64,000 nt of DNA from NCBI RefSeq assembly GCF_900129725.1, contig NZ_FQWQ01000002.1:868001-932000 (forward strand), given 5' to 3'. Numbering within the stretch: position 1 is the stretch's first letter; every line of letters begins with the position of its first letter. A program made the translations under genes and the position numbers. The DNA is from Chryseolinea serpens. Its GTDB lineage: Bacteria > Bacteroidota > Bacteroidia > Cytophagales > Cyclobacteriaceae. The notes under the pieces are model-generated. The model ran no database searches and was not told the DNA's origin. It saw only the letters and a list, made by a program, of their open reading frames with translations. Shown piece by piece: positions 33,740 to 48,631 of this stretch.

Positions 33740-34186
33740 ATGAACAGCTATCGTCAAATTATCTATCACATTGTTTTTCTTACAAAAAACCGAACGCCCG
33801 GCATTGAGGACCGTTATTGCCATGATCTGTATCGCTATATCGGTGGGGTCATAAAAAAAAGAAACTCGATCTACTATGAAATCAACGGAGTTGCCGATCA
33901 CATTCACATCCTCTCCGACTTACATCCCAGCATCGCCCTCGCTGATCTCATAAAAGAAATAAAAGTCGCCAGCAGCAGTTGGCTGAAACAAAGTGGCAAG
34001 TTCCCGCACTTCGATGGATGGCAAGAAGGCTACGCGGCCTTCACCTACTCCATCAAAGAAAAGCCCAACCTGGTTCGCTACGTCCAAAATCAAAAAATCC
34101 ATCACCATACCGAAACCCTGGAAGCAGAATACAAACGACTATTAAAGGAGCATGAAATAAAATATGACGAACGATATCTGCTCTGA
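33740..34186 (+). CDS. IS200/REP-type Y1 transposase (RAYT-like)
   Basis: A 148-residue HUH single-strand transposase of the TnpA_REP/IS200 group. It has the opening YRQIIYHIVFLTKNR, the HUH pair in DHIHILSDL, the probable catalytic Tyr in LVRYVQNQ, and the C-terminal HEIKYDERYLL common in Bacteroidota homologues. It is intact. No tnpB or clear insertion-sequence ends flank it. Instead, composite palindromic elements begin 76 bases downstream, which fits a REP-associated, possibly domesticated, transposase. Confidence 0.88.
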   Translation: MNSYRQIIYHIVFLTKNRTPGIEDRYCHDLYRYIGGVIKKRNSIYYEINGVADHIHILSDLHPSIALADLIKEIKVASSSWLKQSGKFPHFDGWQEGYAAFTYSIKEKPNLVRYVQNQKIHHHTETLEAEYKRLLKEHEIKYDERYLL

Positions 34187-34261
34187 ACTCCACAGCACAA
34201 CGAAACACCTGGGCATAACGTCTTCCTTACCCGAACATTAATAGACAAATCAACTGCACCT

Positions 34262-34346
34262 AAGCCCGTAGGGCTTCCCCATCATAACGCCCGGTGCAAC
34301 CGGGCGAGCGGAACCCTCCGGAGTACAACCCTGTAAGGGTTACCCC
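34262..34346 (+). repeat. Three-hairpin composite palindromic element, copy A
   Basis: Hairpin 1 is AAGCCC-GTA-GGGCTT (34262-34276). The conserved CCCCATCATAA follows, then hairpin 2 CGCCCGGT-GCA-ACCGGGCG (34288-34306, 8-bp arms, 3-base loop), a 20-base spacer, hairpin 3 AACCCT-GTA-AGGGTT (34327-34341) and a trailing ACCCC. Copies B, C and D share the layout, with hairpin arms changed in pairs. Confidence 0.9.
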
Positions 34347-34518
34347 ATTTGGAATCCTCTCCCATCGATCGACTCGCATTATGTTGCGCGCAACCATTCG
34401 GAGTGAAATTGCCGTCACTATCCATCATGCCGAATCTCCAAAAATTAACTCTCTTACCCAGATATCTTTTGAGCATCTCTCACTAAAATAGAGACTAAGC
34501 TTGCGTATAAGATTCCCC

Positions 34519-34607
34519 CCTAAAGGGTAACCCCGCTGGGGTTGAATTGATTTCTGGTCCTGCCCCCAGCTTCGCTGGGGGTTATGATGGGGAAGCCCTA
34601 CGGGCTT
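34519..34607 (-). repeat. Three-hairpin composite palindromic element, copy B
   Basis: Inverted relative to copy A. On the plus strand: hairpin 3 AACCCC-GCT-GGGGTT (34529-34543), spacer, hairpin 2 CCCCCAGC-TTC-GCTGGGGG (34563-34581), the conserved block TTATGATGGGG, and hairpin 1 AAGCCC-TAC-GGGCTT (34593-34607). Hairpin 2 differs from copy A at most positions yet pairs perfectly. Confidence 0.9.
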
Positions 34608-34729
34608 GTTGAACTTTTCGCAATCTAAGGCTTCAGTTTAATTTTAACCTTTTCTTAAAAACTTATCCGCTCTGTTTACGGTTTGTTCTCATACCTTAAT
34701 GTTTCATTTTTTAACAAAACACTACCTCC

Positions 34730-35377
34730 ATGACCCTAAAAAAAATCGGCATCCTTGGCTCTGGCGAAGTGGCGCAGTCTCTTGGCGAGGGATTTTTAAA
34801 ACACGGCTTTCAGGTTACGCTGGGAACGCGCGACGCGAAAAAATTGGCGGATTTTAAGCGTGAGCATGCCGCTGTTCACGTGGGAAGTTTTGAAGACGCT
34901 GCCAAGTTTGGCGAGTTGATCGTGCTGGCCGTGAAGGGCACCGCCGCCGAAGCGTTGGTGAAATCTGTGGCGCAGGCGCTGAGCGGCAAAACTGTGTTGG
35001 ATACTACCAATCCCATTGCCGACGCTCCGCCTGTGAATGGCGTGTTGAAGTGCTTCACTACGTTGGATGAGTCCCTGATGGAGCGGTTGCAAAGACTTGC
35101 CCCTGCAGCAAATTTCGTGAAGGCATTCAACACCGTGGGCAATACGTTGATGGTGAATCCTGTGTTGCCGGGTGGCAAGCCTTCCATGTTCATTGCGGGG
35201 AATAGTGAGAAAGCAAAAAAGGAGGCCAAAGAAATCCTGGACTTGTTTGGTTGGGAGACGGTGGACATGGGTGCCATTGAAGGCTCGCGGGCAATTGAAC
35301 CGTTGTGTGTGCTGTGGTGCATTCCCGGGTTCTTGCGGAATGAGTGGTCGCATGCGTTCAAGCTGGTGAAGGCCTAA
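34730..35377 (+). CDS. NADP oxidoreductase, coenzyme F420-dependent-like (NPD family)
   Basis: A 215-residue Rossmann-fold protein with the dinucleotide motif GILGSGEVAQSLGEGF (residues 7-22), TLGTRD after strand 2 (the Arg suggests NADP), VLDTTNPI and the FVKAFNTVGN segment. It resembles F420:NADP oxidoreductases and the related single-domain reductases common in bacteria that lack F420. The substrate is unknown. It has its own upstream region and faces the hypothetical gene at 35406 convergently. Confidence 0.82.
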   Translation: MTLKKIGILGSGEVAQSLGEGFLKHGFQVTLGTRDAKKLADFKREHAAVHVGSFEDAAKFGELIVLAVKGTAAEALVKSVAQALSGKTVLDTTNPIADAPPVNGVLKCFTTLDESLMERLQRLAPAANFVKAFNTVGNTLMVNPVLPGGKPSMFIAGNSEKAKKEAKEILDLFGWETVDMGAIEGSRAIEPLCVLWCIPGFLRNEWSHAFKLVKA

Positions 35378-35405
35378 AAAGGTCATATCGCGCGACGGGC
35401 ATCTC

Positions 35406-35957
35406 TCAAGGTAAATATTTATAGCAAATGACTTCATTTGAATCTTCGTGAACGACGACCCTTTCAATGACAGGGCTCTGGCCTGGCGCGAAGTTTTGAA
35501 CACGTTCCCGTATGTAGGCCCCGGCGTCTTCGTAGTTTGCTTTTGAGATCGTGTTGGGTTCGCGGCGAGCGGGAATTCTCGCGCCGAAGTCGTAGTAATT
35601 TTTTATGGACTCAATGATGCGCGCTTTGTCGGCCTGGGATATTTCTATTTCAAACATTTGATAGGCTCCCCAAAAACCATCATCATCGGTTTTCACGATT
35701 TGGAAATCGTCGTACAGCATGATGTTTTGGTTGGCGAGGAACTTTTCGACATCGGATTTGGTGTAGAATTGGTCATGGAAAAAACCATACGCGATCAGCA
35801 AGATCAGACCTCCGAACAGGGTTGAGGAAAGGATGATCGCGGCTTTTTTGTTACCCCTTCTTTTCGGGATCCAATAACACAAAAAAATTAGACCGGCCAC
35901 GGCCAGGATGAACACGAAGGCAATGATTCCCCAAAACGCTACTAAATCCATGTCCAT
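35406..35957 (-). CDS. Hypothetical membrane-anchored protein behind the TIR gene
   Basis: A 183-residue protein with two N-terminal membrane helices (about residues 6-28 and 38-58, with the basic turn PKRRGNKK between) and a soluble C-terminal domain of about 120 residues, with no recognised motif. It begins three bases after the stop of the gene at 35961 and is probably co-transcribed with it and with the TIR gene further upstream. An alternative start lies two codons in. Confidence 0.65.
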   Translation of the reverse strand: MDMDLVAFWGIIAFVFILAVAGLIFLCYWIPKRRGNKKAAIILSSTLFGGLILLIAYGFFHDQFYTKSDVEKFLANQNIMLYDDFQIVKTDDDGFWGAYQMFEIEISQADKARIIESIKNYYDFGARIPARREPNTISKANYEDAGAYIRERVQNFAPGQSPVIERVVVHEDSNEVICYKYLP

Positions 35958-35960
35958 AGA

Positions 35961-36503
35961 TCACACTTTCTCTTCATGGGTTACATGGTCTTTCATCATG
36001 AAATGCAGATCGCGTTCAAGGTCATATTTTGTTGCGCGCATGCTCCGCTTCATACGGCGATAGGAGCCTCCGAACATGAAGACGGCATGAATCGATATAA
36101 CGAGCAATGCAATACCACGCGCGTCTTCGGCAATGTCTCCGAACAAAAAGAAGCTCAGAGCAGAAAGATAAACGACGGTCATAATAATGTAGGGCGGGAT
36201 CATCCATCCGCTAAAGCCATTCAACTCAACATCAATGATCAGTTTGTTCCCGGCCTGTTGGAGTGTTCCGCTGATCGATGGCGACGTTGTTTTATGGTCG
36301 TATTTTCGTTTCCGTCTTATTTTGAATTCATCGTTTTTCATCGTGCCCTTGTAGACCCTGTTGTTCGCGGAGAACTCTTCAAAAAAGTCGGGGCCTGGGT
36401 CGTCCAGGTTGGCGATCAGGATTTTTGCAAAATCGGATTTATTCATGGACAGCTCGATTTGAAAACTATCGAGCAGGCCGATTTTTCTAAGAAATTCGTT
36501 CAT
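35961..36503 (-). CDS. Hypothetical protein with two membrane helices behind the TIR gene
   Basis: A 180-residue protein. The N-terminal about 95 residues are soluble (FQIELSMNKSDFAKILIANL, later GTLQQAGNKLIIDVEL) and are followed by two hydrophobic helices (about 99-115 and 125-145) and a basic tail. The ATG at 36503 is chosen because the upstream extension holds low-quality sequence. No family is recognised. It lies 168 bases downstream of the TIR gene, same strand, and abuts the next small membrane gene. Confidence 0.65.
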   Translation of the reverse strand: MNEFLRKIGLLDSFQIELSMNKSDFAKILIANLDDPGPDFFEEFSANNRVYKGTMKNDEFKIRRKRKYDHKTTSPSISGTLQQAGNKLIIDVELNGFSGWMIPPYIIMTVVYLSALSFFLFGDIAEDARGIALLVISIHAVFMFGGSYRRMKRSMRATKYDLERDLHFMMKDHVTHEEKV

Positions 36504-36663
36504 GTTGAGATTGATGGAATGCCGCACAACGCTGTTAGGGCTCGCCCGCAAAATATAAACAATTATGAAAAAAAGGTATGGTGCGTCAAAAAAGTAAGAA
36601 AGGTAGGGCTGGGTTCTAGCGTCTTTGTTGTCGCTCGAAATCATGTTAAACCGAAAAGTCGCC

Positions 36664-36683
36664 ATCCTTCGCTAAAGCGTAGC
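36664..36683. repeat. Repeat copy overlapping the 3' end of the TIR gene
   Basis: CCTTCGCTAAAGCGTAGC at about 36666-36683 matches the start of the GCTAAAGC dispersed family. The TIR stop codon (TAG, 36672-36674 on the minus strand) and the last two or three codons lie inside it, so the repeat appears to have supplied or reshaped the end of that gene. Confidence 0.5.
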
Positions 36684-37931
36684 AATGACCTTTTTCAAAC
36701 CATCAACTACGTCGAGCCAGGCCTTGTCGCGCGATGTCCAATCGGATATGGGTTTTAAGTTTTTTGGAAGCGCTGCAAATTTCTGCAAGGGCAGGCTTTT
36801 GAAATCGCAGGGACGGATAATAATGGGGATGATGATCGCATCGCCTTCTTTGTTCCTCTCCAGTGCGCGCTTGATCTCCACTTCATTTATATAGTTGGAA
36901 TTCATGAACGTAGAGCTCACCAGGAAAAGAATAATTTTGGATTCCTCCAGTACCTGGCAGATGGCGTCATTCCAAACATCGCCGGCCAACAATTCCTTGT
37001 CCGTCCAGTCTTCAATGATCTTATTGTTTCGCAAACCACTCAAATGCTCCGCGAGCGCGTCCTTGAACTTTTCGTCCTTGCGGGCATATGAAATAAATAT
37101 CTTTATGCCGGCTGAACTCTTTGGTTTGGGAGCGGGGGCCACTGGTTTCGGTTTATACACTGGAGTTGTCAAACCGCCGGTGTGAGAATATAGCTTCTTA
37201 CCCGCCGATGGGCCTGTGAGCACAATGTAATAGTCATACCCATCAAGCTCGATCTCGCTCGGCTCTGTCGTCGTTCTAATGGTGATGGGATTGCTCACGG
37301 AAACCAGTTCGCCTTCCTTGTCTAAGTATAGTATGGCCGTGGTCCCTTTATCGAAGCGAACAGGATCCAATATAAATCGTTCTCCGGTTGGACTTCTTTC
37401 GTATTGCTTTGCAATTGTTTGCATTAAAATATAACCGAATTCATCGAGGTTGCTCAATGCGCGCGTTACCATAAAATTTGAATATTCCAGGAGGCCTTGA
37501 GTAGGAATATTCCACCGATCGTCATCTGACAAGCTCTTGTAGACAACTTCAAACAACTCGCCAGACGCTGCACTGGCCCGTTGCTGCATCTTCCAAAGAA
37601 CGGCATCCATCTTCACCCGGATTTCCGAACTATACTCTCGTCGCTGGATATTCGAAGGTTTGACCCAACCCTTGTGAGACCCATTACTTACCTCTATAAT
37701 ATGATCGGTTTCTCCATTCGAATACGGCAAGGTAAAACCGACGATGGTCACCTCTTCGCCGGGTTTGAAATTTCCGGGAACATATCCCCTCGAATCGCCG
37801 ACAAGTTTAACCGTCATGCCTTTGTGAAGCTCCATGACCAGGTCTCCTTTGAGGGCGACGATTTCGTCGTATTCCTGTTCAATCCTATTGTATCCAAAAA
37901 GATTGTGCTTGAGGTTTATATCTTCGCTCAT
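36672..37931 (-). CDS. TIR-domain protein with N-terminal SH3-like region
   Basis: A 419-residue cytoplasmic protein. Residues about 37-97 look SH3-like (GMTVKLVGDSRGYVPG, ending GSHKGWVKPSNIQ). A helical region (about 100-180) and a beta-rich region follow, then a Pro-rich linker (258-272) and a TIR domain (about 276-410: IKIFISYARKDEKF, then LEESKIILFLVSSTFMNSNY). Glu350 or Glu352 in YINEVEIKRAL sits where the NADase glutamate of bacterial TIR domains lies, so activity is possible but unproven. The ATG at 37931 is chosen because the upstream frame encodes unlike, Cys-rich sequence. Two small membrane genes follow; a defence role is an inference. Confidence 0.85.
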   Translation of the reverse strand: MSEDINLKHNLFGYNRIEQEYDEIVALKGDLVMELHKGMTVKLVGDSRGYVPGNFKPGEEVTIVGFTLPYSNGETDHIIEVSNGSHKGWVKPSNIQRREYSSEIRVKMDAVLWKMQQRASAASGELFEVVYKSLSDDDRWNIPTQGLLEYSNFMVTRALSNLDEFGYILMQTIAKQYERSPTGERFILDPVRFDKGTTAILYLDKEGELVSVSNPITIRTTTEPSEIELDGYDYYIVLTGPSAGKKLYSHTGGLTTPVYKPKPVAPAPKPKSSAGIKIFISYARKDEKFKDALAEHLSGLRNNKIIEDWTDKELLAGDVWNDAICQVLEESKIILFLVSSTFMNSNYINEVEIKRALERNKEGDAIIIPIIIRPCDFKSLPLQKFAALPKNLKPISDWTSRDKAWLDVVDGLKKVIATL

Positions 37932-38292
37932 AGTGTGATAAAAGAAAATTTGAAACTTCGCTTTGAGGAATACTCCGGCGCACTTACCACTATGAAGAAG
38001 GCAAATAAAAAAATGACAGACTACAAATGACCGAACAGGTAAGCGAGAGGGAATTAATCCTAAAATACCAAATTGTATGCGAAGCATCAATAGCCTAAGT
38101 GGTCATCACTAAAAAAAGGGATGCTAGCGCATGAATCCGCGGCTGTAAAAAATTGGAAGTTTAAACGTTGCAAGGATCGGAATACTTCAAGGCTAAACCG
38201 CTTCGCCTACGCTAAAGCTTCGGCGGGCAGGCAAAAAAAAAACGCAAAGAAGTTGAATCTCCTCTGCGTCTCCCTGGCGTGAAATGTATTTG
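37932..38292. other. Intergenic region, 361 bases, with repeat fragments
   Basis: This gap lies between the TIR start and the GH109 stop. It holds one GCTAAAGCTTCGGCGGG repeat (38204-38227) and, after an A-run, a half element of the CGCAGAG/CGCAAAG family (about 38238-38273). The right part may act as terminator for the GH109 gene; the left part should hold the TIR promoter. No gene is supported. Confidence 0.6.
38204..38227. repeat. GCTAAAGCTTCGGCGGG repeat copy
   Basis: The unit starts CGCCTACGCTAAAGC and ends TTCGGCGGG; the outer CGCC/GGCG can pair. It is the closest match in the window to the copies at 15757-15802. Confidence 0.7.
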
Positions 38293-40059
<1,767 letters not shown>

Positions 40060-41076
40060 ATGAAGAAGGCCCCCACCATCAAGGAAATTGCCCGGATGTT
40101 AAACTTATCCATCTCGACGGTGTCGCGAGCTTTACACAACAGCGAAGACATTAGTCCGGCCACCACCAAACGCGTGAAGGAGGTAGCCGACGAGCTCGGC
40201 TATGAGCCCAACCAAACAGCCCTCTTCCTGAAATCGGGAAAAACCCTGACGCTGGGCGTGATCCTCCCCCACTTGTCGGAAGCCTTTTTCTCGGAAGCCA
40301 TCAGCGGCATCGAAGACTTTGCCAGCGAGCACAACTACAACGTGCTCATGGGCCAGAGCCACGACGACACCGAACGCGAAAAAAAGATCGTGGAAGCCAT
40401 GAAGAACCACCGCGTAGACGGCATCCTGGTCTCCATCGCCAAGAACACAAAAGACTTTACGCATTTCGATAACCTGAAAAAATACGACATCCCCGTCGTG
40501 TTCTTCGACCGCGTGCCCGACCGCAAGGAAGCCAACACGGTGACCTGTAAAATGGAAGCGGCCATGCAGGAAGCTGTAGAGTTCCTGGTCAAGAACGGCC
40601 ACACCCGCATCGCCTTCATCAACGGTCCCAAAGATCTGCTGGCTACCCGCGAACGATTGCGCGGCTATGAAAACGCACTCAAGAGTTTGCACGTGGCCAT
40701 GAACAACCAGTTTGTGGTGCACAGCGACCTGTCGCCCGACGCCACCTACCGCGCCATGCAACACCTGCTCACACTCAAGCCCGGCCCCAGCGCCGTGATC
40801 GCCTTCAACGACTATGTGGCACTCGACGCGATGCAGTATGCAAGAAAAATGAATATTAAAATAAACAAAGACATTAGCTTTGTGAGCTTTGCCAACCTGC
40901 CCGTGTGGAGCTATATGGAAAACCCGCCGCTGGCATCGGTGGAACAGTTTCCCTACCGGCAGGGGCAGCGCGCCACAGAGATGATCCTCGACATCCTGAA
41001 CGCGCCCCGCACAGCAAAACAGCATGAGAAGTTCAACAAGATAATTTTAGAACCCCGGCTTTTTATACATACATGA
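40060..41076 (+). CDS. LacI-family transcriptional regulator
   Basis: A 338-residue DNA-binding regulator. The helix-turn-helix and hinge lie at residues 1-60 (TIKEIARMLNLSISTVSRAL and DELGYEPNQTA); a periplasmic-binding-protein-like sensor domain follows (LGVILPHLSEAFFSEAISGI, VFFDRVPD, AFINGPKD, AVIAFND). The ATG at 40060 is chosen because it starts exactly at the family N-terminus MKKAPTIKEIA; the upstream extension is poor. It is the first gene of an operon with a sugar-kinase-like gene and galM. The two identical AAACGTTT-core sites in this window are its likely targets; the effector is probably a hexosamine or its phosphate. Confidence 0.95.
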   Translation: MKKAPTIKEIARMLNLSISTVSRALHNSEDISPATTKRVKEVADELGYEPNQTALFLKSGKTLTLGVILPHLSEAFFSEAISGIEDFASEHNYNVLMGQSHDDTEREKKIVEAMKNHRVDGILVSIAKNTKDFTHFDNLKKYDIPVVFFDRVPDRKEANTVTCKMEAAMQEAVEFLVKNGHTRIAFINGPKDLLATRERLRGYENALKSLHVAMNNQFVVHSDLSPDATYRAMQHLLTLKPGPSAVIAFNDYVALDAMQYARKMNIKINKDISFVSFANLPVWSYMENPPLASVEQFPYRQGQRATEMILDILNAPRTAKQHEKFNKIILEPRLFIHT

Positions 41077-41104
41077 ACACGTTAAAGTTTCGGCAGCAAA
41101 CAAC

Positions 41105-42187
41105 ATGATCCATTCCATCCTGAAAGCCTATGGCATTGCCGATGAGCAAAGTGTGGTGGAACCTCTCGTGAGCGGACTCATCAACAAGACCTGGAAGGTG
41201 ACCAGCGCGGGGCAGGATTATATCCTGCAGCGCATCAATCATTTTGTTTTCAAGAAGCCCTATGAAGTGGCCACCAACATTCGCCTCGTAGACGAATACC
41301 TGGCCCAGCACCATCCCGACTATTTGTTTGTGGCGCCCGTGAAGACGCTCAGCAACGAGGACATGGTCTACAACAAAGACGACGGCTACTTCCGCATGTT
41401 CCCCTACATCAAAGGGTCGCATACCATCAACGTGGTGTCCAGCCCAGACCAAGCCTATGAGGCCGCGTTGCAATTCGGAACGTTTGCGCGCCTGCTGTCG
41501 AACTTCGACGCCGAAAAGCTGCACGACACCATCCCCGACTTCCACAACCTGACGCTGCGCTACTACCAATTTGACGACTCGTCAAAATATGGCAACGCCA
41601 AACGCATCAAACGCGCCAAGGCCATCATCGAAGATGCCCGTAAACACCTGCACATCGTGGAACAGTTCGAGACCGTGCGCCTGAACAAGCGCATCAAACG
41701 CCGCGTGATGCACCACGACACCAAGATCAGCAACGTGTTGTTCGACGAAAAAGGGAAAGGCCTCTGCATCATCGACCTCGACACGGTGATGCCCGGCTAT
41801 TTCATCAGCGACGTGGGCGACATGATGCGCACTTACCTCTCGCCCGCCAACGAAGAGGAAACCGACTTCAGCAAAATTGAAGTGCGCGACGACTTCTTCC
41901 GCGCCATTGTGCACGGCTATGTGAGCAGCATGGGCAACGAACTGATGCCCGAAGAACGCGACCTCATTCTCTACAGCGGCTGGTTCCTCATCTACATGCA
42001 GGCCATCCGTTTCCTGGCCGACTATTGCAACAACGACGCCTACTACGGCGCCAAATATGAAGACCACAACTTTGTGCGCGCCAGCAACCAACTGATCCTG
42101 TTGAAACGCCTCGAAGAAAAAACCGACGTGTTCGAAAAGATCATCGCCGACGAACTGAAACGCAACAACCTCTTCACCCTTTCATGA
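41105..42187 (+). CDS. Phosphotransferase related to N-acetylhexosamine 1-kinase (NahK-like)
   Basis: A 360-residue kinase of the aminoglycoside-phosphotransferase fold. The catalytic motif is HHDTKISN (residues 203-210: Asp205 as base, Asn210 as metal ligand), followed by CIIDLDTVMPGYFISDVGDMMR. This second block closely resembles NahK of bifidobacteria, which phosphorylates GalNAc and GlcNAc at C1. Its place between the LacI regulator (28 bases) and galM (4-base ATGA overlap) fits sugar catabolism. Other APH-fold kinases remain possible, so substrate is inferred. Confidence 0.8.
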   Translation: MIHSILKAYGIADEQSVVEPLVSGLINKTWKVTSAGQDYILQRINHFVFKKPYEVATNIRLVDEYLAQHHPDYLFVAPVKTLSNEDMVYNKDDGYFRMFPYIKGSHTINVVSSPDQAYEAALQFGTFARLLSNFDAEKLHDTIPDFHNLTLRYYQFDDSSKYGNAKRIKRAKAIIEDARKHLHIVEQFETVRLNKRIKRRVMHHDTKISNVLFDEKGKGLCIIDLDTVMPGYFISDVGDMMRTYLSPANEEETDFSKIEVRDDFFRAIVHGYVSSMGNELMPEERDLILYSGWFLIYMQAIRFLADYCNNDAYYGAKYEDHNFVRASNQLILLKRLEEKTDVFEKIIADELKRNNLFTLS

Positions 42188-43275
42188 GCGCCACCGCAGC
42201 CATTCCCACGCAACGACACACGATCGAAAAAAGTTATTGGGGCGACGTAGGCGGCAAAGCCATCTGGCTCTACAAACTTTCGCTCGCCGGCGGCTTCCAG
42301 GTGTGGGTGACAAACTATGGCGCCATCATCCAATCCCTGCTCGTGCCCCGACCCAACGGCACCACCGTGGACGTTGTGCTGGGCTACGACACACTGCAAG
42401 AATATATCGACGACATATCCTACATAGGTTGCGTGGTGGGCCGCGTGGCCAATCGCATCGAGACAGGGAAAGTTTCTATTGAAGGAAGGACGTGTCAACT
42501 GGCCGAGACAGCGGAAGGGTTTCACATCCATGGGGGCCACATCGGGTTTGGCAAGAAAGTGTGGGATGCCGAAACGTTTGGAACGACCACGACTGTGGGA
42601 ATAAGCCTGCTGTACACCAGCGCCCATTTGGAGGAAGGCTTCCCTGGCAACCTGACCACGCGCGTGAAATACACGCTACATCCCGGCAACCGCCTTAGCG
42701 TTGAGTACTTCGCCACGACGGATCGCGCCACCTTAGTGAACCTGACACAACACAGCTACTTTAACCTCGGCGGCCACGATCATGGAAACATCGGCGGCCA
42801 TTTATTGCAAACACACGCCGACTGGTATCTGCCCGAAACGAATAAGCTCGTTCCAACTGGCGAGATCGCGCCCGTGCGCGGCACGCCATTCGACTTTAGA
42901 GAGGCCCGGTTTATCGATGAGCAAATTGACGCCGACCATAGTCAGCTTCGGGCTTCCGGCGGCTACGATCATTTCCTGGTGCTGGAACAGAAACACACCA
43001 AAGCATTGAAACCCGCCGCGACCCTCATCGAGCCCCGCTCGCGGATGCGCATGGATGTTGACACAACGGAGCCGGGATTTCATTTTTATGCGGGGAATTT
43101 TTTGGCAGAGACGTTTGAAGGGAAGAATAAGAAGCGATACCATCATCGTGGTGGGGTGTGCCTGGAGACGCATCATTTTCCGGATACACCGAATCATGCG
43201 CATTTTCCGAGCATTACTTTAAGTCCCGGAGAAGAATTTAATAGCCGAACGGATTTTAGTTTTAAAGAAGCCTGA
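42184..43275 (+). CDS. galM: Aldose 1-epimerase (mutarotase)
   Basis: A 363-residue mutarotase that interconverts alpha and beta anomers of hexoses. Conserved residues are the FHIHGG histidine (about His114-116), the catalytic His190 in TQHSYFNLGG, GYDHFLVL, and the catalytic Glu328 in CLETHHFPDTPNH. No clear signal peptide is seen, so it is probably cytoplasmic. The start overlaps the kinase stop (ATGA), implying translational coupling. An upstream exo-glycosidase releasing one anomer explains why a mutarotase is paired with the kinase. Confidence 0.94.
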   Translation: MSATAAIPTQRHTIEKSYWGDVGGKAIWLYKLSLAGGFQVWVTNYGAIIQSLLVPRPNGTTVDVVLGYDTLQEYIDDISYIGCVVGRVANRIETGKVSIEGRTCQLAETAEGFHIHGGHIGFGKKVWDAETFGTTTTVGISLLYTSAHLEEGFPGNLTTRVKYTLHPGNRLSVEYFATTDRATLVNLTQHSYFNLGGHDHGNIGGHLLQTHADWYLPETNKLVPTGEIAPVRGTPFDFREARFIDEQIDADHSQLRASGGYDHFLVLEQKHTKALKPAATLIEPRSRMRMDVDTTEPGFHFYAGNFLAETFEGKNKKRYHHRGGVCLETHHFPDTPNHAHFPSITLSPGEEFNSRTDFSFKEA

Positions 43276-43373
43276 CGAGTTTTACTCGTGTCTGAGCAGC
43301 GTCGGGTCAATATTTTTACGATGGACCTTGCGTGGATCGTTTAATCTCCCTATGATTAGCAAAGATTTTTGTT

Positions 43374-43784
43374 ATGCCACCTGAACTGACAATCCTTTTC
43401 ATCTCGGCCGGTTTTCTTATTCTGGGGGTCTACTTCTGGCAAAAGGGAAATCATTTACTGAAAAATGGAAAGAAGGCCGAGGCCATCGTTTTTTCAAATA
43501 ATTTCGAGGCCAGTCACAATGGTGGCGGTGTCTACTATCCCGTGGTCCGTTTCCTCACCGACAAACAAGAATGGATCACGCAAGAGCTTAGCGTAGGGAC
43601 TAGCCCCAAAAAACGTGAAGGGACAAAGCTCCAGGTGATCTATGACCCCGAAAATCCAACCGATGTCCAAATCAACTCTACTTTTGTACTCGAAATACTC
43701 CCCCGAATTTTCACTGCCCTTGGGGTGATGGGTGCGGTGTTCGTTACGCTCGAGATTTTAGATGTCATCAATATTCTGCCGTAA
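43374..43784 (+). CDS. DUF3592 membrane protein
   Basis: A 136-residue protein with an N-terminal membrane helix (about 5-22), a small extracytoplasmic beta domain with YYPVVRF and GTKLQVIYDPENPTDVQIN typical of DUF3592, and a C-terminal helix (about 108-130). Function is unknown. It has its own upstream region about 100 bases after galM and is followed by other small membrane genes. Confidence 0.8.
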   Translation: MPPELTILFISAGFLILGVYFWQKGNHLLKNGKKAEAIVFSNNFEASHNGGGVYYPVVRFLTDKQEWITQELSVGTSPKKREGTKLQVIYDPENPTDVQINSTFVLEILPRIFTALGVMGAVFVTLEILDVINILP

Positions 43785-43838
43785 GTTGACGGCTAAAATA
43801 TTCCCCAAAAATTTAACCGTTAAAACCATTCAGCACAC

Positions 43839-44432
43839 ATGGCCACTGAACAAGCTTCTTTGTTGTCCAAAGAAATTTATGCCGGTTTCTGGATCAGGTT
43901 CGGTGCCTTCTGCATCGATACCCTGATCGTTACCCCTCTGTTCGCTCCCCTGATATTTATGGACGGCATGAGCAAAACGATGTACTACACACTGCTTGTA
44001 CCGAACATCATCTGTGGCCTCTTTTTGAGCATCTACTGCGTGAAGAAATGGGGAGGAACGCCGGGAAAGCTGGCGCTAGGTCTGAAGATCGTGATGGAGA
44101 ACGGCGAGGATGTGGATTGGCCGGCGGTCTTCTGGAGGCCGTCCGTCATATACTTCCACTATTTCGTGTCCGAGACTGTAAAGTTGCTCTCCATGCAACA
44201 AATTCCAGACGATGTTTTTGTGTCCCTCACTCACCTCGAACGAACCCAGGCACTTTCCGCAGTCTATCCAAAACTGTCTCTTCAACTTTTGATCTTGGGA
44301 AATATCTGGCTTCTTGAATCCCTCTTCTTACTGCTCAACAAGAAAAGAAAGGCGATACATGATTTTATGGCCGGAACGGTGGTGATCAGACGGAAGGATC
44401 AGGCGCGGCTACAGGCCGGGGAGGATTTCTAA
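43839..44432 (+). CDS. RDD family membrane protein
   Basis: A 197-residue protein with the RDD signature: the N-terminal Arg-Asp helix (GFWIRFGAFCIDTLIV), GGTPGKLALGLKIV between helices, and a last helix followed by a basic tail with DFMAGTVVIRR. RDD proteins are small multi-pass membrane proteins; some act as cation/proton antiporters but most are uncharacterised. It follows the DUF3592 gene by 54 bases on the same strand. Confidence 0.85.
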   Translation: MATEQASLLSKEIYAGFWIRFGAFCIDTLIVTPLFAPLIFMDGMSKTMYYTLLVPNIICGLFLSIYCVKKWGGTPGKLALGLKIVMENGEDVDWPAVFWRPSVIYFHYFVSETVKLLSMQQIPDDVFVSLTHLERTQALSAVYPKLSLQLLILGNIWLLESLFLLLNKKRKAIHDFMAGTVVIRRKDQARLQAGEDF

Positions 44433-44495
44433 ATAGCGTGATAATTTCCCTTCAAGGAAAGCTTAACATCCCATTATTATTCTAAACTTACGGGA

Positions 44496-45041
44496 ATGGA
44501 AGACGCTATCTGCCTGGTAAACCAGTTCATCGTTCTGGACCTTTTCATAGGATATGGGGTGTACTCTCTCCTGGTGTTTCCCTTTTTCAAACGAAGCCAA
44601 TGGATCGGCAAATTAGACGATGCCGCAAACAAAGTCATCGCCGGATGCGGGCTGATCTATCTGGCCAGTTTCTTCATCATGGTCAATCTCACACCGCCGC
44701 CACAAGTGTCTGACGCACGCTACTGGTGGGCCTTGTGGATCCAGCCGATCCTCTGGCTATTCGCCACACAACTCGTTCGGATCGACAGCGTAAAACGTTC
44801 TATCCTCGCGCGGATCGCTATATCGCTCGTGTTGATCTTTTCGTTCGAGCGATTTGTGATTATTGTGACGTCCTTCCACAGGGACTATGTGCCTAGCGGG
44901 TGGGCAAGCTCTGCGGGTTCGGATATGATACCGGCAATTGTGCTGGGGCTGACCCTTAAGGGAATGATTTTTTGCGCCGTGGCTTATGGATACCGCTACC
45001 TGGAGCGCAAATTGAAGAGACCTGATCCGGTCAACCCGTAA
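44496..45041 (+). CDS. Multi-pass membrane protein, unknown function
   Basis: A 181-residue protein with about five hydrophobic helices (near residues 13-30, 46-64, 78-94, 104-122 and 143-165) and a basic C-terminus (RYLERKLKRPDP). No motif or family is recognised. It may be a compact relative of the neighbouring membrane genes' functional set, but nothing in the sequence shows it. Confidence 0.6.
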   Translation: MEDAICLVNQFIVLDLFIGYGVYSLLVFPFFKRSQWIGKLDDAANKVIAGCGLIYLASFFIMVNLTPPPQVSDARYWWALWIQPILWLFATQLVRIDSVKRSILARIAISLVLIFSFERFVIIVTSFHRDYVPSGWASSAGSDMIPAIVLGLTLKGMIFCAVAYGYRYLERKLKRPDPVNP

Positions 45042-45221
45042 GTAGAGACTTGGCCTGGCGCTCTGCGTGCTCGATCCTGACCTAACGCAAAGCGTGGTAA
45101 AACGAGTCACGCCCTTCAAACAGGCAAGTTGACCAAGAACAAACATTCATTTCCGCCGTTTTGAATTTATACCGGCTTTATCAAAAAGCATATAAATACC
45201 ATACTTCAACACTTAAAAAAA

Positions 45222-45518
45222 ATGGCAGTATACATTGTAAACGCATACGATATTAACGACTTCGAAATGTTCAGTAAATATCCACCTCAAGTCGGGCCAT
45301 TGCTCGAAAAACATGGTGCAAAACTGTTGGCTATGGAGACCAATCCAAAAGCATTAGAGGGAGTGCCGAGAACCATGAACGCCATAGTTGAATTTCCGTC
45401 GGAGAATGCTGTGTATAATTTCTATAATGACCCCGCGTACCAGGCGTTTATTGATTTGAGGTTTAAGTCAACGTCGAATTGCACGATGGTGATGCTTCAT
45501 CAGTTTGAGAGGAAGTGA
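45222..45518 (+). CDS. DUF1330 family protein
   Basis: A 98-residue ferredoxin-like (dimeric alpha-beta barrel) protein. The pattern AVYIVNAYDINDFEMFSKYPPQVGPLLEKHGAKLLA, the strand AIVEFPSENAVYNFYNDPAYQ and the final strand agree with DUF1330. Members are small cytoplasmic proteins of unknown role, some near catabolic genes. It stands alone, 180 bases after the membrane gene before it. Confidence 0.85.
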   Translation: MAVYIVNAYDINDFEMFSKYPPQVGPLLEKHGAKLLAMETNPKALEGVPRTMNAIVEFPSENAVYNFYNDPAYQAFIDLRFKSTSNCTMVMLHQFERK

Positions 45519-45601
45519 TTTTCGTTTCTAACCTTTAATACAACGCCACATGGTCTCGAAATCCAGTCGACAAAAAAGCTATCGCCCAGTAGGAGCGTGC
45601 C

Positions 45602-46144
45602 TCACACCTGTGCGTTGGATGATTTGATGCATGACCTTATTTTTGGATATTTCGCCATAACATCAAGAAAATATTTCTCATCGTAGATTATCTTTTCCCC
45701 TTTGATCCTTTTGAATTCATTGAAGATGATCAGCAAGGTCGCATCGTCCCAGTTCCAGGAGCAATTGATGTCGACCGTTTGGCCATCGGACAGTATCCTA
45801 AAAAAGCAGTCTTCCCTACCCGATCGATTACCTTTTGCTTTAATGTGGATGGTCGATCTGCTGATATCGAATTGCTTCTCCCACCGGGTATTGAAGTGAC
45901 ATCCCTGCACCATCAAGGTGCCCTCGGAAAAACGCACGCCATAAACAAACGTCCGTGCCTTCACCACCGCATAGATTCCATACAGCACACCAATGCCGGT
46001 AATGACCAAGCCCGCCATTCCAAGGTTGGCTTGTGGTCTTAAGAAATGATTACCTAGTATGATTGCCGTCCACAGCAAGAAGCCTGGGAGGAATATCTTT
46101 CGAAGCCTTGTTGCGAAGGTTAGATATTCGGTTGTTAGTGTCAT
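45602..46144 (-). CDS. Hypothetical protein with two membrane helices
   Basis: A 180-residue protein with an N-terminal helical hairpin in the membrane (about residues 17-34 and 42-60) followed by a beta-rich cytoplasmic domain (TFVYGVRFSEGTLMVQG, then WEKQFDISRSTIHIKAKG) that resembles a PH-like domain in strand order. That resemblance is weak. It lies 17 bases downstream of the lipoprotein gene on the same strand. Confidence 0.6.
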   Translation of the reverse strand: MTLTTEYLTFATRLRKIFLPGFLLWTAIILGNHFLRPQANLGMAGLVITGIGVLYGIYAVVKARTFVYGVRFSEGTLMVQGCHFNTRWEKQFDISRSTIHIKAKGNRSGREDCFFRILSDGQTVDINCSWNWDDATLLIIFNEFKRIKGEKIIYDEKYFLDVMAKYPKIRSCIKSSNAQV

Positions 46145-46161
46145 AAATACAATGGCGCAAT

Positions 46162-46614
46162 TTAATTCAGGCGGATCGGTTTTTTCGAGTAGCCCAACGT
46201 TATTTTATCAAATTCGGCCTCGATAATCAAATACCTCCCATGGGCTAAATCAAAAAGAGTGTCTAATTCGATCTTCCTTATGGCAGGTTCAGCGCGGTCA
46301 TTTGCATGCATGATGTCACCTTCAAAAGTTACTTTTATTCGGATTTGGCTTTTGACCGATCGAAGATTGATCCAATTTTTCGGGTCAATCCCCAAACTTC
46401 TATCGGTAACGATCTTTCGATTTAAAAAATATACAGAGTCATTTATGATGAGGTTGCAGACTTCTTCATCCAAAACAGACCGGATCTGAATTGATCCGCT
46501 TTCGACTCCTTGGGGTTTCTGCACCGTAGCGCACGACGCAACTAAAATGAATATATACATACAAAGTCCGTTCTTAAAAACGGATTGCGGCACTCGATTT
46601 TGCATCCTAAACAT
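46162..46614 (-). CDS. Small lipoprotein, unknown function
   Basis: A 150-residue protein with a lipobox (LVASC, lipidated Cys about residue 28) after a hydrophobic stretch. The mature part has beta-strand character (GSIQIRSVLDEEVCNLIIND, SQIRIKVTFEGDIM) and a basic end. The start at 46614 is chosen to give a normal lipoprotein signal; an ATG three codons later is equally possible, and the longer upstream frame is not. Function unknown. Confidence 0.6.
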   Translation of the reverse strand: MFRMQNRVPQSVFKNGLCMYIFILVASCATVQKPQGVESGSIQIRSVLDEEVCNLIINDSVYFLNRKIVTDRSLGIDPKNWINLRSVKSQIRIKVTFEGDIMHANDRAEPAIRKIELDTLFDLAHGRYLIIEAEFDKITLGYSKKPIRLN

Positions 46615-46972
46615 GATTATTTTAAACTTCGTTACGCAAAATATTGAAAATATCTCGCTCGAATCCGAAATATCTGCCGGCCTGGAGACAGCTATTTCAC
46701 CGAATTTCGTCGATGAGAAAAAAACAACCCGGCATTTTTCCAAAGCCACGCGCACAATGCATACATCGCTAAAAAAATGACCTCAAAAACTGGCACGAAT
46801 AGAAAATTTACTAAATTTATTCATCTCCACGCCTAAATACCAAAAGGCACACGTTTCCCTCGCTTTTTGGATTTTAGTTTTTGATCGAAAACATGCAGGC
46901 ACGCCGTTGTCGGGCTAACCAACGGCATTGCCGTTATATCAGATCACCATTACCTTAACAAATACCCGTTAT
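46615..46972. other. Intergenic region, 358 bases, with overlapping hairpins
   Basis: The gap separates the divergent lipoprotein gene and the tiny membrane pair. It is AT-rich and without a gene. At its right end GCCGTTG (46903-46909) can pair with CAACGGC (46920-46926), while AACGGC-ATT-GCCGTT (46921-46935) forms a second, overlapping hairpin, so only one can exist at a time. An attenuator role for the genes at 46973 is speculative. Confidence 0.5.
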
Positions 46973-47194
46973 ATGGAAGAGAAAGAAATAGACTATTTAC
47001 TAACGCTTGGTAACATTTGTACCACCTTTGCCTTGGCAGTCGGGGCCTCAGCTTACTTTGACTACCAGCAATTGGGTCACGTGATAAAACCCATGACGTT
47101 CTGGGGGGCGGTTTCAGTCACGACGGCCTCGGCGAGCACGGCATGTTATCTTTTTACTATCGCAAGCCAATTAATTCAAGAAGGAAAAAAATGA
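46973..47194 (+). CDS. Tiny membrane protein, unknown function
   Basis: A 73-residue protein with two hydrophobic helices (about residues 10-28 and 43-64) linked by YFDYQQLGHVIKPM. The ATG at 46973 is preferred to a TTG 15 codons upstream. Its stop overlaps the start of the next small membrane gene (ATGA), so the two are probably made together. No family is recognised. Confidence 0.55.
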   Translation: MEEKEIDYLLTLGNICTTFALAVGASAYFDYQQLGHVIKPMTFWGAVSVTTASASTACYLFTIASQLIQEGKK

Positions 47195-47385
47195 ACGCTA
47201 ATTATTTACTCCTGTTTCCCGTCATCTACGCGGCAATGTGTGTCTACTTGGCCATCCTGGTGGCTGTTACTCAGCGAAGAGCTGCGAAAAGAAAAGGTTC
47301 AAATGTCGCCAAATCGAAAAGGGAAACATCTTCGCACGTGGGGTCTGCATCGGACTCCAAGCGCTTTGGCGTCGAGGGGCATTAA
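47191..47385 (+). CDS. Tiny single-pass membrane protein, unknown function
   Basis: A 64-residue protein with one N-terminal membrane helix (about residues 4-27) and a basic, Ser/Lys-rich cytoplasmic tail (RRAAKRKGS...). Its ATG overlaps the preceding stop by four bases, which supports this start. The helix-plus-basic-tail layout is common and gives no function. Confidence 0.55.
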   Translation: MNANYLLLFPVIYAAMCVYLAILVAVTQRRAAKRKGSNVAKSKRETSSHVGSASDSKRFGVEGH

Positions 47386-47449
47386 ACTGATCTTCCTGTG
47401 ACTTTCGGCATCGTGTTGCATTCCACAGTAAGGAACACCTTTGCCCAGC

Positions 47450-48142
47450 ATGTCCATAAAACCAAACCTAATCACCGCTCATTGTTTGATCGGTCTTTGT
47501 GCATTAATATGTCTCGCTGCTTGCCAGACCGAAAAACCAAAGAAACAGCCCGCCACCTTCTACGACGCCGTCCTTGGTCAGATCATTTACGACCGGCATT
47601 ATCACTGTCTCTACGTATTCGATGAAGACAAGAACCTGAAGAAAATGGATTCCGCCTATCGGAATAGAGCCGTTTCTGAAGCAACTTTCTTCAGACTGGT
47701 GGATGCTGTTAAAAAGAAGCGAATGAACATGGCCCCAAAATATGCGATCACGTTCCATCCCGACCTGGGTCTCTATTATAAAGAACACGCCATACCCGAC
47801 GAAGAAAAAAAAGACCTGCTGCTGGCACTACTATCAGACTCCGTGTTTCGGCAAACCTTCCCGGCCACCTGGAAACTCGATCCCCTATTTACTCCCTGCG
47901 GCCTTCACGCCGCCGACTTTCATATTGATTTTCTTCAAATCGATCCACCGCCCCCAAAATGGAATCCAGTGTGGGGCTCGATCAGTCTTTCCAAGCCTCT
48001 CTTCAATGCCAGCAAAACCCGAGCGGTGGTTTATTGTGAATATCATTATGAAAGCCCTTCTGCGGAAGGCGTTTTTGTGTTTGTCGAAAAGCAAGATGAT
48101 GGTTGGAAAGTCTACAAATACCTGCTCATCTGGCAAAGCTAG
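47450..48142 (+). CDS. Lipoprotein, unknown function
   Basis: A 230-residue protein with a lipobox (CLAAC, lipidated Cys25). The mature part is a mixed alpha/beta domain (ATFYDAVLGQIIYDRHYHCLYV, then TRAVVYCEYHYESPSAEGVFVFVEKQDDGWKV) whose last strands resemble NTF2-like or stress-response lipoproteins, but this is not firm. The ATG at 47450 is preferred to the TTG three codons upstream. Confidence 0.65.
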   Translation: MSIKPNLITAHCLIGLCALICLAACQTEKPKKQPATFYDAVLGQIIYDRHYHCLYVFDEDKNLKKMDSAYRNRAVSEATFFRLVDAVKKKRMNMAPKYAITFHPDLGLYYKEHAIPDEEKKDLLLALLSDSVFRQTFPATWKLDPLFTPCGLHAADFHIDFLQIDPPPPKWNPVWGSISLSKPLFNASKTRAVVYCEYHYESPSAEGVFVFVEKQDDGWKVYKYLLIWQS

Positions 48143-48158
48143 TCCTTTCCGCCCCCAC

Positions 48159-48245
48159 AAGCCCGAAGGGCTTCCCTATCATAGCCCCCAGCGAAGCTGG
48201 GGGAAGCAGTGGAAATGATTTCAACCTCGAAGAGGTTACCCCTTT
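48159..48245 (+). repeat. Three-hairpin composite palindromic element, copy C
   Basis: Hairpin 1 AAGCCC-GAA-GGGCTT (48159-48173), conserved CCCTATCATAG, hairpin 2 CCCCCAGC-GAA-GCTGGGGG (48185-48203), spacer, hairpin 3 AACCTC-GAA-GAGGTT (48223-48237), then ACCCCTTT. Same orientation as copy A. Confidence 0.9.
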
Positions 48246-48365
48246 AGGTCGTGGCTTAATTTTACAACTGAGGGCCTATTCGAGTTGAAGTATTTTAAAG
48301 CATCCATGGGGGGTTAAAAGGGAGGCTCAATCATAAAATATAATGTGGTTTCGATTCGGGGTAGC

Positions 48366-48459
48366 CCTCAAAAAAGGGTAACCCTTACAGGGTTGAAATG
48401 CATAAACACGCATTCGCCCGGTTGCACCGGGCGCTATGATAGGGAAGCCCTACGGGCTT
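48366..48459 (-). repeat. Three-hairpin composite palindromic element, copy D
   Basis: Inverted relative to copy C. Plus-strand order: hairpin 3 AACCCT-TAC-AGGGTT (48380-48394), spacer, hairpin 2 CGCCCGGT-TGC-ACCGGGCG (48415-48433), CTATGATAGGG, and hairpin 1 AAGCCC-TAC-GGGCTT (48445-48459). Hairpin 2 has the copy A sequence type, while its partner copy C has the copy B type. Confidence 0.9.
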
Positions 48460-48631
48460 GGCATGCGGCTTGAGTTTTTTTTACAAGTAGTGGTAGTTTT
48501 ATTTCGGGGATGACAAGATTTCTTTTTGGGGAGTTTTCCGTGGCGCTATGGTGCGCCGAATTTTGTCGCAAAACAGAGACAGCTAAAAATGCAAAACTTT
48601 ATGGGTATCTTAGTTTCAACCCACCGCCCCT

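Follow-up and report, generated by a model that had tools for sequence, protein, structure and literature searches.

Four copies of a three-hairpin unit, A to D, lie in a 64,000-nt stretch of the Chryseolinea serpens genome (contig NZ_FQWQ01000002.1, positions 868,001 to 932,000 of the forward strand; hereafter the window). They stand as two inverted pairs, the first of which adjoins tnpA, a gene for a 148-aa HUH/Y1 (IS200-like) protein. The unit family is real, structured and widespread, and is a repetitive extragenic palindrome (REP)-like partner of a transposase group reported without one. The copies are probably composite REP-like elements, set in inverted pairs like those of REPINs (inverted REP doublets, PMC3116915) and cognate to the adjoining protein, which would make the locus a REPtron of TnpA_Y1 subclass 1.2. 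Behind this reading stand the anatomy of the units, the conservation of their pairing, their genome-wide family, the adjacency and co-occurrence of units and tnpA across species, and the presence or absence of pairs at syntenic sites. By analogy with characterized REP transposases, TnpA may bind, cut and move the units.

Anatomy of the units in the window

All four units share one layout, in which a 6-3-6 hairpin (H1) is followed by an 11-nt linker (CCCYATCATAR), an 8-3-8 hairpin (H2), a 19-20-nt spacer, a second 6-3-6 hairpin (H3) and TACCC. This layout and the four positions had been described in an earlier sequence-only reading of the window, and re-reading the sequence confirmed all of them. 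The tnpA gene (33740..34186, + strand) stops 75 nt before unit A (34262..34346, +), which has H1 at 34262-34276, the linker at 34277-34287, H2 at 34288-34306 and H3 at 34327-34341. Unit B (34519..34607, -) is inverted, with H1 at 34593-34607, the linker at 34582-34592, H2 at 34563-34581 and H3 at 34529-34543. Unit C (48159..48245, +) has the corresponding parts at 48159-48173, 48174-48184, 48185-48203 and 48223-48237, and the inverted unit D (48366..48459, -) at 48445-48459, 48434-48444, 48415-48433 and 48380-48394. A/B and C/D are thus head-to-head pairs with H1 outermost, their members 172 and 120 nt apart, and all four units are intergenic. The distance from the H1 loop to the H2 loop is 28 nt, and the foot, meaning the four bases 5' of H2, is ATAA in A and B and ATAG in C and D.

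The four copies are beyond chance, as judged with a covariance model (R2) built from 57 units of other species and holding no sequence from the window's genome or from its congener G292. Across the 64 kb, R2 scored A, B, C and D at 37.5, 40.5, 46.3 and 38.7 bits (E values between 2.1e-9 and 4.7e-12); the best match after these had an E of 0.15.

Selection on hairpin structure

Because other pair counts drew on units that had been chosen for H1 and H2 pairing, we relied on 27 copies in the genome picked by the H1+CCC pattern alone (0-1 mismatch). H2 positions paired in 201 of 216 cells, and all eight base pairs were intact in 23 of the 27 copies, whereas 2856 of 4048 cells paired when the 5' arm of one copy was set against the 3' arm of a copy with a different 5' arm. 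Six intact H2 arm types occur in this sample; the four copies without an intact H2 comprise two that are indel-shifted, one that is mismatched and one (L025) with no recognisable H2. At the two pairs held in common with G292, 156 of 160 stem positions are identical, and the four changes are two compensated pairs in the H3 of unit A (AACCCT.GTA.AGGGTT vs AACTCC.GAA.GGAGTT). Outside the stems, 34 of 44 linker positions are kept, as are 47 of 76 aligned positions in the H2-H3 spacers and 132 of 181 aligned positions in the pair centres (292 in all). The selection on structure proposed from the four copies is therefore upheld, both by arms that covary in copies not chosen by H2 and by stems that are kept in G292 while spacers and centres diverge.

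A genome-wide family of inverted pairs

A second covariance model (R1), built from 27 copies of the window's genome, which match it by construction, found at least 70 places at E<=1 in 8.36 Mb, 37 of them above 70 bits. At least 62 places had E<2e-3; 150 first-look candidates were scored, and these copy numbers are lower bounds. Among the 62 places, 20 of the 23 neighbouring pairs are +/-, with gaps of 58-349 nt between their members, the others being one ++, one -- and one -+, and a further 16 units are single. Inverted doublets are over-represented, as in REPINs, and the family consists of multi-copy hairpin repeats adjoining a Y1 tnpA, as in REPtrons. By the terms of the sequence-only reading, a search that found only its four copies, or arm changes that left stems unpaired, would have refuted its proposal. 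The genome-wide search it suggested revealed a repeated, paired family, so the proposal mostly withstands this, although some copies do have broken stems. Its description of H1 arms as fixed applies only locally, since ATGCCC/GGGCAT and AATCCGC/GCGGATT are found elsewhere in the genome. One member of each H2 type per pair, which it had also noted, is seen in both window pairs and in 6 of 13 readable pairs with those two included, the other seven having the same type on both sides.

A recent subfamily comprises seven full pairs and two partial copies with common flanks beyond H1. Recent pair copies at L010, L017, L020 and L027 have another palindromic repeat family (GGCCTAAAGGCC, CTTTAGGCCAGGG, TGTGCATAGAC) nested around them, outside the pairs, for example at about 1160-1490 and 1900-2040 of L017. 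A simple core pattern, CCCNATCATA, was rejected as too unspecific (51 places, vs 21 for its reversed control).

Units around related tnpA genes in other species

For 113 related genes, of which one is the window's own, 79 come from named records and 33 from further genomes, the surroundings were scanned for a composite unit, defined as a hairpin, an 8-14-nt linker ending in TAR and a second hairpin, with control windows placed more than 1.5 kb away in the same loci. A unit lay within 600 nt of 79 of the 113 genes, compared to 4 of 583 control windows. Stems of at least 7 bp numbered 2.61 per 400 nt upstream of tnpA (76 loci) and 2.27 downstream (77 loci), against 0.25 in 930 control windows. 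Near tnpA, the gaps separating adjacent hairpins peaked at 11 nt (65, vs 3 in a control of double the number of bases), with a second, broad peak at 17-24 nt; these two peaks are the steps from H1 to H2 and from H2 to H3. Of 215 units, 106 had H1 and H2 loops exactly 29 nt apart, and in 152 this distance was 28.5-29.5 nt.

A strict selection of units left six and was replaced by selection on loop distance, from which 57 of 74 units entered the alignment (A4). Of the 17 excluded, three were in swapped register (L165:4807, L181:5510, L185:4608), six looked odd by eye (two of L176, L184, L195 and two of L208) and eight were each a second unit from the same or a near-identical locus. The 57 units align without gaps as AAnCCC.GAA.GGGnTT, nAATATGAATAR and CCnCGGGT.GAA.ACCnGnGG, with an H2 loop that is mostly GNA. 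Their feet are ATAG in 21, ATAA in 16, GTAG in 8 and others in 12, counts that are partly preset, as TAR was a criterion of the scan. When this criterion was dropped, 133 of 197 links of 8-14 nt ended in TAA/TAG or started with TTA/CTA, and the 11-nt peak appeared too.

Units occur in named hosts from, among other groups, Bacteroidota, Verrucomicrobia, Lentisphaerae, Phycisphaerae, Zixibacteriota, Cloacimonadales and Calditrichia; single names are uncertain because many of these hosts are metagenome bins. The scan returned no composite unit at three Neomarinimicrobiota genes, at three Ignavibacteria/Ignavibacteriales genes or in Balneola and Gracilimonas, most of which have nearby hairpins. 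In a quick tree of 107 clean proteins (few columns, midpoint root), a branch with support 99 splits the window's side, where 72 of 90 rows have a unit, from a smaller side of 17 rows, one of them long (L132), where 2 do, giving a Fisher p of 1.2e-7 with relatedness ignored. The smaller side is a fair control because its genes are of the same kind and come from the same kinds of host. In the same tree, homologues from genomes of the window's family are identical or almost so to Belliella proteins (L088/L209, L084/L203), which fits Cyclobacteriaceae as that family.

Upstream of tnpA, the nearest unit is forward in 49 of 61 genes; downstream, it is reversed in 42 of 59, and 41 genes have units on both sides, indicating that tnpA is often bracketed by a head-to-head pair that elsewhere stands empty. 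The window's genome and G292 depart from this, the pair lying downstream of tnpA rather than bracketing it. Two tandem arrays were also seen beside tnpA genes. One (L078, G199:C25, about 2064-2940) repeats the unit with a 143-nt period and contains seven GAAGCCTT hairpins in a row; the other (L097, G124:C233), on the unit-poor side of the tree, is an array of a CGTTCC.GCT.GGAACG hairpin in repeats of about 35 nt and is perhaps another kind of partner repeat.

Co-occurrence and turnover among relatives

Within the genus, G292 has a tnpA product 73% identical to that of the window and 28 R1 places at E<=1e-3. The two tnpA genes are at the same genomic place (a neighbouring gene is 93% identical), and the G292 gene stops 7 nt before an inverted pair, the same arrangement as in the window. 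R1 found no places in four other congeners, one lacking a tnpA relative and three having a best relative 34-40% identical. Across 291 genomes of the order, R1 at E<=1e-4 matched 28, made up of 18 of the 27 with tnpA at E<=1e-35, a cut-off chosen after the tables were seen, and 10 of the 264 others. A repeat search of the nine R1-negative genomes among the 27, with filters and cut-off relaxed, gave R1 places in two and none in seven, which is expected if unit sequences diverge.

R2, with at most 20 places scored per genome, matched 60 of the 291 genomes at E<=1e-3, namely all 27 with tnpA at the stricter cut-off and 33 of the 264 others. Ten of the 27 had contributed a unit to R2 and the other 17 all matched, with the reservation that a record of one of those 17 species could be among the R2 rows. 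Five of the 27 (G035, G100, G176, G233, G274) have one or two R2 places each. At a tnpA cut-off of E<=1e-8, R2 matched 52 of 140 genomes with tnpA vs 8 of 151 without.

In 400 kb of G292, whose syntenic parts are mostly 75-92% identical, A/B and C/D have orthologous pairs at syntenic places. Pairs at C8:935152 and C8:1131095 are absent in G292 (495 and 927 bp vs 9 nt), and at C8:1104 kb two pairs in the window's genome face a shrunken remnant. Presence and absence at syntenic sites is found, with two pairs missing in the congener; the sequence-only reading had named a check of this kind, among strains. Target-site duplications were not seen at the two empty sites, whose borders are not clean. 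Places in G291 and G293 that match the window pairs were rejected as empty sites, being too diverged.

The adjoining Y1 protein

The tnpA product matches PF01797 (E 1.9e-21) more strongly than the one other place in the genome that does. One close tnpA copy stands against at least 62 unit places. It resembles the IS608 and ISDra2 transposases by sequence, and its predicted fold (predicted local distance difference test score 91.2) is similar to theirs with TM-scores of about 0.6 but root-mean-square deviations of mostly 5-9 Å; the E. coli TnpA_REP structure 4er8 was at rank 30 in the same comparison. The catalytic H, H and Y are invariant in 38 homologues, and the Y---Q--HH motif is found in 104 of 107 clean homologues. 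With DHIH, WQ and YVQNQKIHH in 148 aa, the protein has the features of subclass 1.2 (DH[IV]H, WQ, Y---Q--HH, about 148 aa and a C-terminal extension), and by these motifs it is assigned to that subclass. The Y---NP of class 2 TnpA_REP proteins is absent, Y---Q--HH standing in its place.

Relation to known systems

In the survey of TnpA_Y1 proteins by Quentin et al. 2018, subclass 1.2 is listed with 'no' REPs (PMC6006769). The window protein matches that subclass in motifs, length, low copy number and occurrence in Bacteroidetes, but differs in that one large homologue group here has repeats; their absence is a reported property of the subclass rather than a defining motif. The survey's automatic search was keyed to a GT[AG]G foot and would therefore pass over ATAR feet, and the depth of its repeat search for subclass 1.2 is not clear from the passages concerned. 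We found no assignment of repeats to this subclass in the open-licence PMC literature (subscription papers and preprints fall outside this scope).

The closest known counterparts are REPs and REPINs with their TnpA_REP proteins (RAYTs, REP-associated tyrosine transposases), such as the Stenotrophomonas maltophilia REPtron Sm, which likewise combine footed hairpins, inverted doublets and an adjoining low-copy HUH/Y1 gene. The S. maltophilia REP has an 8-bp perfect stem and a 3-nt loop whose first G matters (PMC8266576), and the same shape recurs in the 8-3-8 H2 with its mostly GNA loop and, in 8 of 57 units, a GTAG foot. Differences are the mostly ATAG or ATAA foot, the additional H1 and H3, and a class 1 protein (Y---Q--HH) in place of class 2 (Y---NP). 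The sequence-only reading had taken the unit to be more than, and so other than, a REP; this is unsupported, as it missed the tnpA neighbour and the cross-species association, and H2 with its TAR foot is closely REP-like.

Two further systems share single features with the units. Subclass 2.6 and class 3 tnpA genes with 'atypical secondary structures' (PMC6006769) also have non-GTAG hairpins adjoining tnpA and copies elsewhere, but their protein motifs are different. TIRtrons, which are RAYT-like genes with long terminal inverted repeats (PMC3733652), have inverted repeats on both sides of the gene but encode proteins of other groups, and the passages on them describe no multi-hairpin structure.

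Weighing the alternatives

Several observations weigh against a subclass 1.2 REPtron. The feet are mostly ATAR and not the GT[AG]G of REPs. The control windows around tnpA were mostly coding, and the scan found no unit at 34 of the 113 related genes, 18 of them among the 90 on the window's side of the tree. The syntenic differences are blocks larger than a pair with borders that are not clean, so gain and loss are not distinguishable. Eight genomes have 1-16 R2 places each and no tnpA match at E<=1e-8; we take these units for relics, assembly gaps or companions of a tnpA too distant to score. Finally, the protein passes the NCBIfam IS200/IS605 equivalog model NF033573 (57.5 bits, cut-off 55).

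This last match also speaks for an insertion sequence of the IS200/IS605 kind, in which the units would be the ends, tnpA the cargo, and pairs without tnpA internal deletions moved whole, in the manner of miniature inverted-repeat transposable elements (MITEs). The HUH/Y1 fold, the Y....Q signature and subterminal hairpins are indeed shared with IS608 and ISDra2, the orientation of the nearest units usually brackets tnpA, and the recent subfamily has common flanks beyond H1 in its seven full pairs. We nevertheless consider this explanation unlikely. The units are inverted pairs, many of them without tnpA, whereas IS200/IS605 ends are not known to be inverted pairs; the single close tnpA among so many unit places does not resemble a multi-copy tnpA-bearing unit; and in both the window and G292 tnpA lies outside the pair, at the same place.

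Co-option of the pairs by the host for a chromosomal task such as protein binding or supercoiling, with tnpA kept for that task and not for spreading, would account for the fixed sites and almost unchanged stems of A/B and C/D, the invariant catalytic residues and the eight genomes with units but no tnpA match. The two absent pairs and the shrunken one in G292, together with a recently amplified subfamily, make it very improbable as an alternative to a REPtron. There is an equally slim chance that the units are host regulatory hairpins acting in RNA (terminators, attenuators or mRNA stabilisers) with no mobility, as their intergenic positions and strong local pairing might suggest, given that no T-run follows the hairpins, that a scan of 34000-49000 gave no Rfam match at E<=1, and that the units, found in either orientation, track a transposase group. 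A MITE of a DDE transposon was discounted on two grounds, the conserved pairing of the hairpins and the association of the family with a Y1 gene.

A model for unit recognition and spread

The proposed mechanism draws on the TnpA_REP proteins of E. coli and S. maltophilia, which work on single-stranded DNA in folded form, using a foot tetranucleotide and cutting at a CT beside the hairpin (PMC8266576). TnpA would bind the unit as a single strand, with H2 and the NTAR foot on its 5' side serving as REP core and guide, and may make extra contacts with H1, at its nearly fixed loop-to-loop distance of about 29 nt, and with H3, about 20 nt beyond H2. It would then cut near the unit via a tyrosine-DNA link, and inverted pairs would thereby spread in trans whenever that strand lay exposed, as on the lagging strand, while tnpA itself would stay at low copy. 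A fuller proposal, for and against which we see the balance as even, is that subclass 1.2 TnpA should not count as an orphan: a large group of these proteins, spread over Bacteroidota, Verrucomicrobiota and several further phyla, would have a multi-part single-strand site of two hairpins at that spacing with the NTAR guide between them, read by a TnpA dimer, and the head-to-head pair would be the replicating unit.

A subclass 1.2 REPtron would give a repeat partner, and hence a testable substrate, to a transposase group reported without any. REP/REPIN biology would then reach beyond class 2 to class 1 Y1 proteins, and into phyla in which GTAG-foot searches would miss most such repeats. The fuller proposal would also constitute a separate route tying a Y1 transposase to repeats, between IS200/IS605 and classical REPtrons. 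The natural series of covarying hairpins also offers a way to ask how multiple hairpins are read by an HUH enzyme and how it picks its cut site.

The genome's other Y1 gene, L040 (G000:C7:1097532-1097741, - strand), has about 189 codons and a YIHNNP motif like that of subclass 2.6. It is flanked by perfect 10-12-bp hairpins, with no composite unit seen adjoining it.

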